Of a DNA stretch of 64,000 nt, positions 34,644 through 39,347 are shown one piece after another. The DNA is from Haloferax denitrificans ATCC 35960. GTDB lineage: Archaea > Halobacteriota > Halobacteria > Halobacteriales > Haloferacaceae. The DNA lies in contig NZ_AOLP01000019.1 in assembly GCF_000337795.1 (NCBI RefSeq), positions 248,001 to 312,000 on the forward strand, in the 5' to 3' direction. Below the pieces are notes generated by a model. It was not told the origin of the DNA, did not search any database, and saw only the letters and a list, made by a program, of their open reading frames with translations. Every line of letters begins with the position of its first letter. Position 1 is the first letter of the stretch. The translations under genes and the position numbers were made by a program.

Positions 34644-34716
34644 GCCGGTGTAGCTCAGCTGGCAGAGCGATTCCTTCGTAAGGAATAGGCCGAGGGTTCA
34701 AATCCCTCCACCGGCT
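34644..34716 (+). tRNA. tRNA-Thr (anticodon CGT)
   Basis: A 73-nt cloverleaf. The acceptor stem is gccggtg/caccggc, the D stem gctc/gagc, and the anticodon stem attcc/ggaat around loop ttcgtaa with anticodon cgt. The T arm is gaggg-ttcaaat-ccctc and the discriminator base is t. It reads ACG threonine codons. There is no intron and no encoded CCA. A TATA-like cttaatta lies at 34593-34600. Its 3' end is copied about 100 bp downstream. Confidence 0.95.
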
Positions 34717-34819
34717 CTTTCTGTCGAACGAAGTGAGACGAAGAGCCCTGCGTGGAGGATTTGAAGCAGGGAGCAACGCGGAGCGTTGCGAGTGAGGTTC
34801 ACAATCCCCTCCACCGGCT
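34704..34819 (+). repeat. direct repeat of the tRNA-Thr 3' end, possible attachment-site scar
   Basis: The last 13 bases of the tRNA (34704-34716, ccctccaccggct) recur exactly at 34807-34819, and the match extends weakly upstream (ttcaaat versus ttcacaat). Between them lies a perfect hairpin, gcaacgc/gcgttgc at 34773-34789. Tyrosine integrases commonly leave tRNA 3'-end copies at island borders. No integrase gene is seen here. Confidence 0.6.
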
Positions 34820-34967
34820 TCTACTGATTCCTTCATCATCTCGGAACTCAACCCCGGAGACGAAGGCCACCGGCGTTGGGGTGGTCTCGCGCGACTGCCC
34901 CGCGTGCGAGAGCGAGACCTGATTTTGGCGGACGTTCCTCTTTAATCCCACAAGAGACCCTCAGAAA
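34717..34967. other. spacer between tRNA-Thr and the low-GC island
   Basis: No gene is seen. It contains the second copy of the tRNA 3' end and the hairpin noted above. GC falls toward its right end as the island begins. Confidence 0.4.
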
Positions 34968-35906
34968 CTAGTTTTCTGACCCACCATTCGTCTCTGTCGC
35001 TTGAGCAAACTCACCCAGACTCATCTGGCTTGCCTCATCCCCGTCAAGATAATCTCTCACTCGAGTCTGTTCCAGTCTCGTTTGGACCTGCAATAAATTC
35101 CCGAGATGATGGGTGCCGAACACAAACATCCCATCAGTGTTCTGCCGGCAGCCCCCAATCTTTCTCAAAAATCGTAATGCATCCCGAACTTTCTCGAGTG
35201 GAATCTCCCTATGACGGTAGCGTTCTATGACATCCGACGGTGAGATCGCGATTCGGTCGTCCTTCCCCAAATTATTCAAAACAAGGTCATGTGCGATAGA
35301 ATACGCAAGTATCTCTCGATTCGCGTTCTCAGTCAGGTAGATTTTCTTATCAACTAACTTCGGGAGTCGGATGCCTTCGCGAAGAAGTGAGTCAAGATCA
35401 CTACTCTCAAATCCACCTTCCTCAAGTTTAAGTACACCCCCTTTGCCTTGAGAAAGAACAGTACAGTACTGGCTTAGTTCGTTTAGTGCATTCAAGCAAC
35501 CTGGAGCAGTTCGACACTCATCGAGGAAGTCAGAATAGTAGACGATAACTGGCTCAACACTGCTCAGGTTGTTTGGATCGAACTGTCCTTCAAACTCGGC
35601 ATCGCGAAGGAAATCAACTACACTCTCGTAACTGAGGTCGTCACACCGCTCCATCTGCTGAATATCTCGGTTGTTGATATTCGTTCCAGACTTGATCTCA
35701 ATCAGAAGAGCGGTTTCACCATCGAACAGCACGAAGTCGGGTTCGGTTTCGATTTGTCGACGAGAGTCGGCAACCGTGACAAAATTCCCGACAAGCCGAT
35801 AGCCTAAATCGAACAGCGCTTTGTGACCCAAGAGCCCATCGAAAGAACTGAAGAAGAGATTGTAGGAATCAACCTCACGCTGCTGTTTGGCCCACTGTTC
35901 GGTCAT
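34968..35906 (-). CDS. PD-(D/E)XK nuclease-like protein with C-terminal helical/winged domain
   Basis: A 312-residue protein from a low-GC island. An N-terminal restriction-endonuclease-like core is suggested by TEPDFVLFDGETALLIEIKSG, where Asp57, Glu70 and Lys72 form the PD-x12-E-I-K active-site pattern. A charged helical middle follows, then a probable winged helix at about 225-275 (SPSDVIERYRHREIPLEKVR, FLRKIGG). It follows the partner gene with a one-base gap, so the two form an operon. GC is about 45% in sampled lines against about 70% around. No known restriction or defence family is recognised; nuclease function is inferred from the motif. Confidence 0.75.
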   Translation of the reverse strand: MTEQWAKQQREVDSYNLFFSSFDGLLGHKALFDLGYRLVGNFVTVADSRRQIETEPDFVLFDGETALLIEIKSGTNINNRDIQQMERCDDLSYESVVDFLRDAEFEGQFDPNNLSSVEPVIVYYSDFLDECRTAPGCLNALNELSQYCTVLSQGKGGVLKLEEGGFESSDLDSLLREGIRLPKLVDKKIYLTENANREILAYSIAHDLVLNNLGKDDRIAISPSDVIERYRHREIPLEKVRDALRFLRKIGGCRQNTDGMFVFGTHHLGNLLQVQTRLEQTRVRDYLDGDEASQMSLGEFAQATETNGGSEN

Positions 35907-35907
35907 C

Positions 35908-37059
35908 TTACGCCTTCAGCCTCCGAGAGTTCTTTTCTAGGGAATATGTCGAGTCGAACTCTTCAAACACTAAGCTACAGAAATCGCGGAACGTAGTAGA
36001 TGTGGTATTCTCTTTTGCGTGGAGATAGATATCTTCATCTTCAACCGTGATCTCAAACGGCTCACCGGTGTCTTTGTCGAAGACGAAGTAATTACCGTGC
36101 TCCCAGACAGAATATTCGTATCTCCGTTTGTGGTCAAGAATACGTTCCTCAAGGAAATCCGCCGTATCTTGCTCCAGTGAGTAGTCCTCTGAATCGTCAA
36201 TCAGTCTAAGCGTGGTTCCTCCTTCGATTGTGAAACCGTTTTTGAACGTCTCTCGAGTCGGCCTGTGCTTAACCTTGTAATTCTGTTCGTCGTGCGCTTC
36301 AAACCCTTTCGAGAGTTCTTCAAGTGTCTGTGCACCACGCTCTTCCGAACCAGGGCGAACACTGGAGAACGTGAAGTGACCCTCTTGTGCAACTGAACTC
36401 CGAACAGCTGCCTCCGGACTATTTCGTTGGTTGAATTCCAACCTTGTCGGCTTCGCGTCGAAAACGTTCTCGACTTTTTCGAGATCTTCGTCCGTCCCAC
36501 CATGGAAGCGGATACTGGCTCGCTTGTCCGTCTTGTACGAATGGTACTTCGCCGTAAACCCTGCAACTGATGTCCCATACAAATCCGCAACGATATCTTC
36601 TAAATCAGACGGTGTGAGAAAGACTCGCTCTAGAGACGGAAGATACTGGATGAGCTTCTCAACGGTCTTTTCGGTCCACTTCCGGCGTTCCGCAGTAATG
36701 ACACGGAGGTAATCACCATCGTCAACGAAGACAAATTGGTCCGTACGTGCTCGTTTTGGTGTGTCGATTTCGACATACGAGACAGAGTCTCCGAGGCGCT
36801 CTTCGTGAAAATTGTGCTCAGTAATATATCGCTGAATGTACTCGGAAAGACCCTCTCTCTGGGAAAGGTGTTCAATCTCGTCGGTTAGTGAACCTAATTT
36901 AAGCCCATGATTGTTTGCGAGGAAGATCTTGACCTGTGTTTTTCGTTGGCCACGGTCTTTCTCATCTTCAATCTCCTCGTCTGTCCGTGTGATATAATCA
37001 ATGAACAGCGAGATAATCTCGTCTGTATCACCGGACAGTTCATTTGGGTCGAATTTCAT
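35908..37059 (-). CDS. unknown protein, partner of the PD-(D/E)XK-like gene
   Basis: A 383-residue acidic, soluble protein in the same low-GC operon. The N-terminal 90 residues are helical and charged. Residues about 90-200 look alpha/beta (SVSYVEIDTP, QFVFVDDGDYLRVITAERR, LERVFLTPSDLEDIVADLYG). A beta-rich stretch about 180-300 contains ASIRFHGGTDEDLEKVENVF, and the C-terminus has YSVWEHGNYFVFDKDTGEPF. No catalytic motif, membrane segment or Cys cluster is seen. It may sense a signal or bind nucleic acid for the nuclease partner; that is speculation. Confidence 0.7.
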   Translation of the reverse strand: MKFDPNELSGDTDEIISLFIDYITRTDEEIEDEKDRGQRKTQVKIFLANNHGLKLGSLTDEIEHLSQREGLSEYIQRYITEHNFHEERLGDSVSYVEIDTPKRARTDQFVFVDDGDYLRVITAERRKWTEKTVEKLIQYLPSLERVFLTPSDLEDIVADLYGTSVAGFTAKYHSYKTDKRASIRFHGGTDEDLEKVENVFDAKPTRLEFNQRNSPEAAVRSSVAQEGHFTFSSVRPGSEERGAQTLEELSKGFEAHDEQNYKVKHRPTRETFKNGFTIEGGTTLRLIDDSEDYSLEQDTADFLEERILDHKRRYEYSVWEHGNYFVFDKDTGEPFEITVEDEDIYLHAKENTTSTTFRDFCSLVFEEFDSTYSLEKNSRRLKA

Positions 37060-37105
37060 GGCTCACGGGCCTCTCTAATAAATGCTCTTGCCAAGGCTTC
37101 AGTTC

Positions 37106-37122
37106 GAAGAAATTAAAATTTA
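37106..37122 (-). promoter_or_regulatory. AT-rich promoter of the low-GC island operon
   Basis: On the minus strand aaattttaatttctt forms a TATA-like element about 55 nt before the ATG at 37059, predicting a leader near 25-30 nt. Confidence 0.4.
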
Positions 37123-37169
37123 CCGATGAATTGAGAATCGGTAGCGACCAAGTCATATCTAACCTGACG

Positions 37170-39347
37170 TTAGAACGCCGCCCGTTCGAGCAGTCGCTGT
37201 GCGAATCCCGGTCGGCGCGAGTCGTGGGGGTAGACGGTTATCGTTGTACACCGCGGACTCGGGGCGGTCGGTCGGCCGGCGAAGCGGACGTTCCGAAGCC
37301 CGCGGTCGGGGGCGCGACGGACCACCACGTCGGGGCGAGTCGGCCGCCCGCCGTCCGTTCTGAGCGGCGTGGTGCGAACCGGGACCGAAAGCAACGCCGA
37401 GAGTTCGGTCTGATACTCGCCGACCGTCCGTTCGTGCTGTTCGGTCATCTCCGGGTTCGGCGGGTGTTGGAGCAACAGCTCACTCGCGTTGGCGGCGGCG
37501 ACGGCCGCCGCGACGCTGACCGCTCGCGGCGGGTACGGCCCGCCGTCTCCGGAGAGCACGACCCGTTCCGGACTGTCGTAACCGAGGTTATCGACCAGGA
37601 GCACGTCGCAGTGGGCGTGGCGGACGACCCAGTCGATGGGGTCGCCGAACAGCCGCGAGCGGAGTCGAAGCGGCTCGTGTTCGGCCACGATGGCGTCGAT
37701 TCCGCGGCCGGCCGCGAAGTTGACGACCGCGTGTTTCGTGTCGTGGCTCACGATTTCGTCGGCCTCGATGTCGACGTCTAACTCCGCCGCGAGCGCCTCG
37801 ATTCGCGCCTCGTACGAGCGGTCCGCGGGCGACTGCGCCGTGACGGCTTCGGTGAGCGGGACCTGGTCGGGCACCTCCTCGAAGCGGACGACGACGACGC
37901 GGCCGTCGTCGGGGCGAACGAGGTCCGCGGCGACGGAGACGAGCGACCGCTCGCGCCTGTCGTCGAGGTCCTTCGTGAGCGCGACGAGCACCTCGCGGGG
38001 AGGCTCGTCCATCGCCGATTCCGTTCGGCTGAGGGCGCTCTGTCCGACTTGTCGGCGAACGGCGTCCGTGACGACGCCCTCGCGGCTCACCCGCGGCCGG
38101 GCGTACAACACGTACCAGACGACGCTCCCGAGCGTGATGGCGACGGCCCCGAGCAGGGCGGTCGAGCCCATCTGCGTCAGCAGGAGCGCCGCGGTGACGG
38201 CGCCGAACACCTGAAGCCACGGGTACAGCGGCGAGGTGAACTCGGGGTCGTACTCCGCGTTCCCCTCGCGGAAGGCGACGACGGCCACGTTGATGAGGCC
38301 GAACACCAGAATCTGGAAGGCGCTGGCGAGTTTCGCGATGTCGAGAATCGGGACGAACGCGATGAGCACCAACAGCACGGCACCGGTGAGCGTAATCGAG
38401 GCGACGGGCGTCCCGAACCGCTCGCTCACCGCCGAGAACGACGGCGGCGCGAGCTTGTCCCGGCTCATCGCGAAGGGGTACCGCGACGAGGAGAGCACGC
38501 CCGCGTTGGCCGTCGAGACGAGCGCGAGGATGGCCGCGAGGATGACCACGACCACGCCGAACTGGCCGAGCGTCGCCTCGGCGGCGACCGCCATCGGCGT
38601 GAGCGACCCGGCGACGCTCCCGGGGTCGGTGACGCCGACCAGCACCGCCACGATGGCGACGTACAGGACCGTCGTGAACGCGAGCGAGCCGAGGATACCC
38701 AGCGGGATGTTCCGCCCCGGGTTTTCGACCTCCTCGGCGACGCTGGCGACTTTCGTCACGCCGGCGTAGGAGACGAACACGAGGCCGGTCGCGGCGAGGA
38801 GACCGCCGAGACCGGCGTCGAAGAAGCCGGCGTAGTTCGCCTGCTGGACGCTGGGTGCGCTCCCGGCGGCGAACCAGCCGAGGGCGGCCAGCATGATGAC
38901 GACGATGCCGACCTGGAGTCGACCCGTCTGCTTCGCGCCGACGACGTTGACGAGTATCAGCACCGCCGCGACGCCCAGCGCGACCGGTCGAAGCGGGAGG
39001 TCGAACAGGAGAAGCAGATACGGGACGCCGCCGACCAGCGCGAGCGCGCCCTTGAACGACAGGGAGAACCACGTGCCGACGCCGGCGACGGTCCCGAGCA
39101 ACGGTCCCATCCCCCGCTCGATGTAGATGTACGTCCCGCCGGCTTTCGGCATGGCGGTCGCCATCTCGGACTTCGACAGCGCGGCCGGCACGACGAGCAG
39201 GCCCGCGAGGGCGTAGGCGACTATCACCGCCGGGCCGGCGACTTCGAGCGCCAGCGCGGGCAGGATGAAGATGCCACTGCCAATCATCGCACCGATGCTT
39301 ATCGCGAAGACGGACGGCAGACCGAGGTCGCGTTCCAACTCCTTCAT
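37170..39347 (-). CDS. APC-family amino acid permease with C-terminal Usp-like domains
   Basis: A 725-residue protein. Residues 1-420 form a 12-helix APC transporter: FAISIGAMIGSGIFILPALAL is the first-helix substrate motif and SYAGVTKVASVAEEVENPGRNIP the conserved loop. Residues about 440-725 are soluble and resemble two Usp-type domains (EVLVALTKDLDDRRERSLVS; CDVLLVDNLGYDSPERVVLSGDGG), probably regulating transport. It overlaps the upstream TrkA-N gene by ATGA and is likely controlled by the divergent Lrp regulator. Confidence 0.9.
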   Translation of the reverse strand: MKELERDLGLPSVFAISIGAMIGSGIFILPALALEVAGPAVIVAYALAGLLVVPAALSKSEMATAMPKAGGTYIYIERGMGPLLGTVAGVGTWFSLSFKGALALVGGVPYLLLLFDLPLRPVALGVAAVLILVNVVGAKQTGRLQVGIVVIMLAALGWFAAGSAPSVQQANYAGFFDAGLGGLLAATGLVFVSYAGVTKVASVAEEVENPGRNIPLGILGSLAFTTVLYVAIVAVLVGVTDPGSVAGSLTPMAVAAEATLGQFGVVVVILAAILALVSTANAGVLSSSRYPFAMSRDKLAPPSFSAVSERFGTPVASITLTGAVLLVLIAFVPILDIAKLASAFQILVFGLINVAVVAFREGNAEYDPEFTSPLYPWLQVFGAVTAALLLTQMGSTALLGAVAITLGSVVWYVLYARPRVSREGVVTDAVRRQVGQSALSRTESAMDEPPREVLVALTKDLDDRRERSLVSVAADLVRPDDGRVVVVRFEEVPDQVPLTEAVTAQSPADRSYEARIEALAAELDVDIEADEIVSHDTKHAVVNFAAGRGIDAIVAEHEPLRLRSRLFGDPIDWVVRHAHCDVLLVDNLGYDSPERVVLSGDGGPYPPRAVSVAAAVAAANASELLLQHPPNPEMTEQHERTVGEYQTELSALLSVPVRTTPLRTDGGRPTRPDVVVRRAPDRGLRNVRFAGRPTAPSPRCTTITVYPHDSRRPGFAQRLLERAAF

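Follow-up and report, generated by a model that had tools for sequence, protein, structure and literature searches.

A two-gene haloarchaeal module pairing a putative sensor of predicted RdgC-like fold with a predicted PD-(D/E)XK nuclease, a candidate Rex-like defense system with an exchangeable effector

In Pseudomonas putida, a RexA-like DNA-binding protein, modeled as a clamp, acts through a membrane effector to abort infection, and its overexpression leads to growth arrest and to membrane damage via the membrane partner (PMC12894663). RexA has been placed in the RdgC/IML3/CHL4 group by its crystal structure (PMC11077077), and RdgC, IML3, CHL4, and RexA have been described as DNA-binding proteins with a single common fold (PMC4080450; PMC11077077). 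Here we describe a pair of genes, A and B, from a 64,000-nucleotide stretch of Haloferax denitrificans DNA (the window), whose predicted products recall this group on one side and PD-(D/E)XK nucleases on the other. We consider it probable, though far from settled, that A-B is a two-gene, Rex-like antiviral module, possibly also directed against plasmids, in which A senses DNA and the nuclease B acts.

The pair had been picked out from sequence alone as two open reading frames one base apart with low GC content. Both frames were found where that reading had placed them, on the minus strand with A first; the gap between the A stop and the B ATG is the single base 35907 (Table 1). The low GC content also held, at 47.8% for A and 48.1% for B against 68.1% for the remaining window, slightly above the 45% first estimated, and among 22 homologous loci there are 21 in which the A-B cassette is poorer in GC than the flanking DNA. 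The copy in Haloferax mediterranei, a cultivated strain, (WP_004060834/WP_004060835) is 85% identical in A and 72% identical in B. Comparison with this copy gave a dN/dS of ~0.05 for A and a dN of 0.19 for B, for which synonymous sites are saturated, hence dN only. Since homologues of both are present in 16 genera and A has a dN/dS of ~0.05, we take A and B to be real genes. The TATA-like element upstream of A is a possible promoter of a leaderless A transcript.

Table 1. Features of the A-B locus and its surroundings, in coordinates of the window
Feature	Position	Strand	Basis
Gene A, 383-aa putative sensor, upstream gene of the pair	35908..37059	-	Open reading frame; 23 full homologues
Gene B, 312-aa putative nuclease effector, downstream gene of the pair	34968..35906	-	Open reading frame; homologues always adjoin A
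Predicted PD-(D/E)XK core of B, residues ~8-170	35397..35885	-	VIA-align of model
Putative catalytic motif of B: D57 (35736-35738), E70 (35697-35699), K72 (35691-35693)	35691..35738	-	Conservation in two-gene loci
Fourth conserved position of B, E11	35874-35876	-	Conservation in two-gene loci
Predicted winged-helix domain of B, residues 196-282	35061..35321	-	VIA-align with BusR, Z 9.7, 79 residues, 2.4 Å
PIP-box-like tail of B, QMSLGEFA, residues 294-301	35004..35027	-	Motif in homologous tails
TATA-like element ATTTATTA, 18-25 bp before the A ATG	37077..37084	-	Sequence only
tRNA-Thr(CGT), marking an insertion-prone site	34644..34717	+	ARAGORN
Repeat of the tRNA-Thr 3' end	34796..34819	+	Self-alignment, 92% over 24 bp
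A-B cassette, approximate extent	34926..37170	.	Flank homology limits to related genomes

Sequence searches did not connect either protein to a described family. Scans of A and B against Pfam, PADLOC, PHROGs, and NCBIfam gave nothing above noise, no PADLOC-DB 2.0.0 model matched A or B at E values up to 1, and profiles of the two proteins run against PDB sequences returned no credible relative. A weak match of B to chlorite dismutase (E of 0.03) was dismissed, and matches of A to internalin (E of 0.2 to 0.7) were rejected as noise. For A, which the initial reading could match to nothing recognizable, these searches gave no sequence relative whose function is known. A scan of genome contigs with B alone found nothing, and a term search of the paper on archaeal 'dark matter islands' found no mention of an A-B module.

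B was detected in 24 of 391 sampled haloarchaeal genomes (~6%), belonging to 16 of 86 genera, and A was present in all 24; the distribution is patchy. A is followed directly by B in 23 of these 24 genomes, while in the remaining one (G345) the two genes lie at the ends of different contigs, which puts their adjacency beyond checking. Among 22 loci, 21 have the two genes spaced by -4 to +5 bp, and five plasmids carry both genes, annotated as hypothetical proteins and in the same A-then-B order in every case. It had been asked whether the two genes would be found apart in other genomes; A and B occurred together in every locus with B. In a sample of 393 genomes from the phylum, all matches to full-length A or B fell within the same order, and outside Halobacteria no A-B pair was found save on one contig labeled Rhizobium sp. 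S152 (L119, NZ_JAUDRZ010000015.1). Its A and B are 68% and 52% identical to those of the window, and its DNA has haloarchaeal composition; this copy is most likely an assembly contamination. A remnant of A comprising the last 125 residues (77% identical), with no B, is present in another genome (G112, L070 4306-4698, minus strand), on a small contig that also carries an Orc1/Cdc6-like gene.

The AlphaFold2 model of A (mean pLDDT of 88) falls into two parts, with residues ~7 to 261 resembling RdgC and CENP-L and residues ~265 to 382 forming a TBP/KA1-like domain. The top Foldseek match in the PDB was RdgC (E. coli 2OWL; E of 4e-5, probability of 1.00, TM-score of 0.29 to 0.35), followed by Iml3 and, slightly lower, CENP-N. 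VIA-align superimposed residues ~7 to 262 of A on RdgC with Z 7.8 (196 residues, 4.9 Å) and on CENP-L with Z 7.6 (197 residues, 5.0 Å), and matched residues ~253 to 380 to KA1- and TBP-like domains with Z 7 to 8. In a viral structure library, three of the top seven matches of A are named phage recombination-associated proteins. These matches are distant, with TM-scores of ~0.3 and Z below 8, a level at which chance arrangements are possible; what speaks for a real relation to the RdgC group is that two libraries and two aligners agree and that the group has already been described as one fold. A is a candidate archaeal member of the fold common to RdgC, RexA, and CENP-L/N. No signal was obtained when profiles of A homologues were compared with four RexA proteins (probability of 0.1%), Pfam scans of 21 A homologues did not bring up RdgC at E values up to 1, and the RexA structure 8TWQ was not among the best 50 matches in either PDB structure search with A. 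Searches of A gave no helicase or ATPase signal. Relatives of its C-terminal domain (residues ~257 to 377) exist in many haloarchaea as separate proteins of ~135 aa with no Pfam family (for example, L026 1447-1848 and L027 1453-1854, both on the minus strand).

For B, the sequence-only reading had proposed a nuclease active site and had named a restriction-endonuclease core as the feature to look for in the predicted fold. The AlphaFold2 model (mean pLDDT of 88) does contain such a core, of the alpha-beta-beta-beta-alpha-beta type, which VIA-align matched to XisH (2okf) with Z 10.4 over 122 residues at 2.9 Å, and to EndoMS/NucS, Bax1, BstEII, and Can2 with Z 7 to 8. Asp57, Glu70, and Lys72 are at the positions claimed for them, and no two-gene homologue covering these positions has lost any of the three. 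By predicted fold and catalytic residues, B is a member of the PD-(D/E)XK superfamily, and as such it would be expected to cleave DNA in a metal-dependent manner. The core is followed by a predicted winged helix, for which BusR and many other winged helices were matched, and then by a tail modeled with low confidence. In this tail, a PIP-like motif recurs: the strict core was found in 11 of 27 homologous tails compared to 0.6 in shuffled tails, while among the remaining tails some fit loosely, several do not fit, and the motif is absent from several lineages. The PIP consensus is QxxI/L/MxxFF/Y, with the aromatic positions relaxed in haloarchaeal polymerases (PMC2737543). Against the pattern Qxx[ILM]xx[FY][FY], the window sequence QMSLGEFA fits at the first aromatic but not at the second; FEN1 of the same genome ends in QTGLDRWT. 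We considered NucS of this genome as further support and rejected it, since its end has no PIP box. Binding of PCNA by the B tail is a lead suggested by these motifs.

A comparison of the active sites across loci separated two kinds of module. In 20 loci, counting that of the window, B is intact at each catalytic position covered (E11, D57, E70, and K72); one of these loci is represented by an open reading frame that does not extend over E11 (L055), and another covers E70 and K72 only (L079). In eight others (L069 and L071-L077), all four positions are changed, and each of the eight carries a further gene, C, immediately upstream of A and in the same orientation. C encodes a protein of ~280 aa with two predicted membrane helices near its N terminus and a soluble domain. 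No C was found in the loci with intact B (the upstream region is visible in 19 of 20; it runs off the contig in L078/L079), and in the genomes sampled, every match to C above 150 bits belongs to one of the eight loci with dead B. Loss of the nuclease is coupled with presence of the membrane protein, suggesting an effector swap in which one sensor can be connected to different effectors. In the B tree the C-carrying loci form one group (94/89), while in the A tree they form two, which points to one or two ancestral events; accordingly, the count of eight loci overstates their independence.

Weaker relatives of C make up a broader haloarchaeal family, a member of which occurs in one genome with neither A nor B (G322). 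On a plasmid of Haladaptatus pallidirubidus (L194 4974-6512), which has neither A nor B in the vicinity, a close relative of C continues in frame into a different C-terminal part that, by eye, resembles that of an Orc1/Cdc6 protein. In one C-carrying genome (G092, L074 11352-12653), C is split by a 434-aa open reading frame taken for a transposase, so that the membrane protein there is probably inactive.

The surroundings of the pair are those of a mobile, defense-rich region. In the window, A-B lies 250 bp from a tRNA-Thr gene, and related genomes carry different DNA at this place. In G152 and G266, of the same species and the same genus, respectively, ~450 bp occupy the place of the A-B cassette. 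G152 has in addition a different 6.7-kb stretch (L110 2062-8749), whose genes are unassigned, between tRNA-Thr and its 3'-end repeat; the filler of G266 is 98% alike to that of G152, and G266 has no large insert. In G155, the gene at the tRNA-Thr site is a tyrosine recombinase, as read by eye. Because different DNA is found there in these three genomes, we regard the site as variable and insertion prone. We found no direct repeat bracketing the A-B cassette, whose exact ends are unmarked by repeats, and no remnant of A or B in the ~450 bp that fill its place in the related genomes.

Proximity to other defense genes had likewise been suggested as a check. Recognized defense genes lie within ~5 kb of at least five loci: an AriA-like ATPase (L060), a type IIG restriction-modification-like protein (L066), an HKD+Snf2/DrmD-like helicase (L057), a DrmMI/IIG-like methylase together with a SoFic protein (L132), and a type IV restriction-like gene (L068). 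At a threshold of 1e-8, 90 neighbors matched 165 PADLOC families, far more than the 10 matched by 90 control proteins sampled at 20 arbitrary positions across these genomes. This enrichment is supportive rather than quantitative, since a few large proteins supply many of the 165 families and the neighbor list was trimmed by eye.

Of three rival explanations, two explain the replacement of a nuclease by a membrane protein worst, namely that A-B is a module for recombination or a factor for repair. In the former case, A would be an RdgC-like modulator and B a processing nuclease, together serving the replication or recombination of the plasmids and islands that carry them. RdgC modulates RecA-dependent recombination (PMC11077077). 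Phages carry RdgC, and several copies of A-B are on plasmids or near integrase, MCM, or Orc1 genes. The window copy, however, stands alone with no integrase beside it, no copy of the module and no A homologue was found in viral contig and phage collections, and a dead nuclease accompanied by a membrane protein would make no sense for recombination; we therefore think this origin unlikely. In a toxin-antitoxin-like addiction pair, either B or C would be the toxin, restrained by A, and the pair would keep plasmids or islands in the cell. The tight two-gene operon, the plasmid copies, and effector types that look toxic would suit such a role, but the usual antitoxins are unlike A, a large protein with a resemblance to a DNA-binding sensor, A precedes B and is conserved as much as B, and no PADLOC toxin model was matched, all of which make an addiction function improbable. 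An accessory DNA repair or replication fork factor working with PCNA outside defense is very improbable: many B proteins have a PIP-like tail, EndoMS/NucS is among the matches of the B core, and RdgC acts in replication restart (PMC11077077), but the module is patchy, being in ~6% of haloarchaeal genomes, a sublineage has lost the B active site, and the window genome has its own NucS and FEN1.

We therefore return to defense. The reading of A-B as a sensor plus a nuclease, first made from the sequence, has gained independent support from the similarity of the A model to a DNA-binding fold, one to which a phage exclusion protein also belongs, and from the dead nuclease accompanied by C beside A. 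In the mechanism that we propose, A would be a sensor of RdgC/RexA/Iml3-like fold that binds DNA and recognizes it as foreign or abnormal. Once A is triggered, B would cut DNA, perhaps while a PCNA-binding tail keeps it at replication forks. In the sister lineage, where the nuclease is dead, the two-helix membrane protein C would take over as effector and probably damage the membrane, in the way that RexB serves RexA; the inactive B, which is retained there, could perhaps serve as an adaptor.

It is conceivable, and we advance it more tentatively, that A-B represents an undescribed archaeal antiviral family built on a sensor of the RdgC/RexA/CENP-L class with interchangeable effectors, either a clamp-tethered nuclease or, after death of the nuclease, a membrane protein. 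If so, an archaeal version of an inner-kinetochore protein fold would be tied to phage exclusion sensors. As a Rex-like module, A-B would extend Rex-type exclusion, described from bacterial prophages, to archaea. It would also offer a natural case in which a DNA-cutting effector is exchanged for a membrane effector while the sensor is conserved, so that the trigger of that sensor would become testable.

Among known systems, RexAB (RexA/RexB of lambda and RexApp/RexBpp of P. putida) is also an operon of two genes, one of them for a soluble sensor that binds DNA, a property that A would share; the fold of RexA is reported to match RdgC, IML3, and CHL4, the group matched by the A model, and the C-carrying lineage has a membrane partner as well. 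In contrast, A has no sequence similarity to RexA, the partner in the window is a predicted soluble nuclease, and A-B lies outside any prophage immunity region. C is likewise unrelated to RexB, which has four membrane helices, while C has two and a large soluble domain. We propose that A-B works in the manner of RexAB but do not file it as such, since sequence homology and a RexB-type partner were both tested for and neither was found. RdgC, Iml3/CENP-L, and Chl4/CENP-N were the best structural matches of the first ~260 residues of A in two libraries; the match is distant (TM-score of ~0.3, rmsd of 5 Å or more), and, unlike these proteins, A continues into a further, TBP/KA1-like domain at its C terminus and has the nuclease as an obligatory partner. 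XisH, EndoMS/NucS, Bax1, Can2, and BstEII share with B the core fold and the E...PD...ExK catalytic residues, but B has a winged helix and a PIP-like tail in addition, always occurs with A, and is catalytically dead in one sublineage. Finally, in two-component nuclease defense systems such as Hachiman (HamAB), the sensor of which is a helicase, a DNA-sensing partner controls a nuclease effector (PMC12278908), as we propose for A and B; searches of A gave no helicase or ATPase signal.
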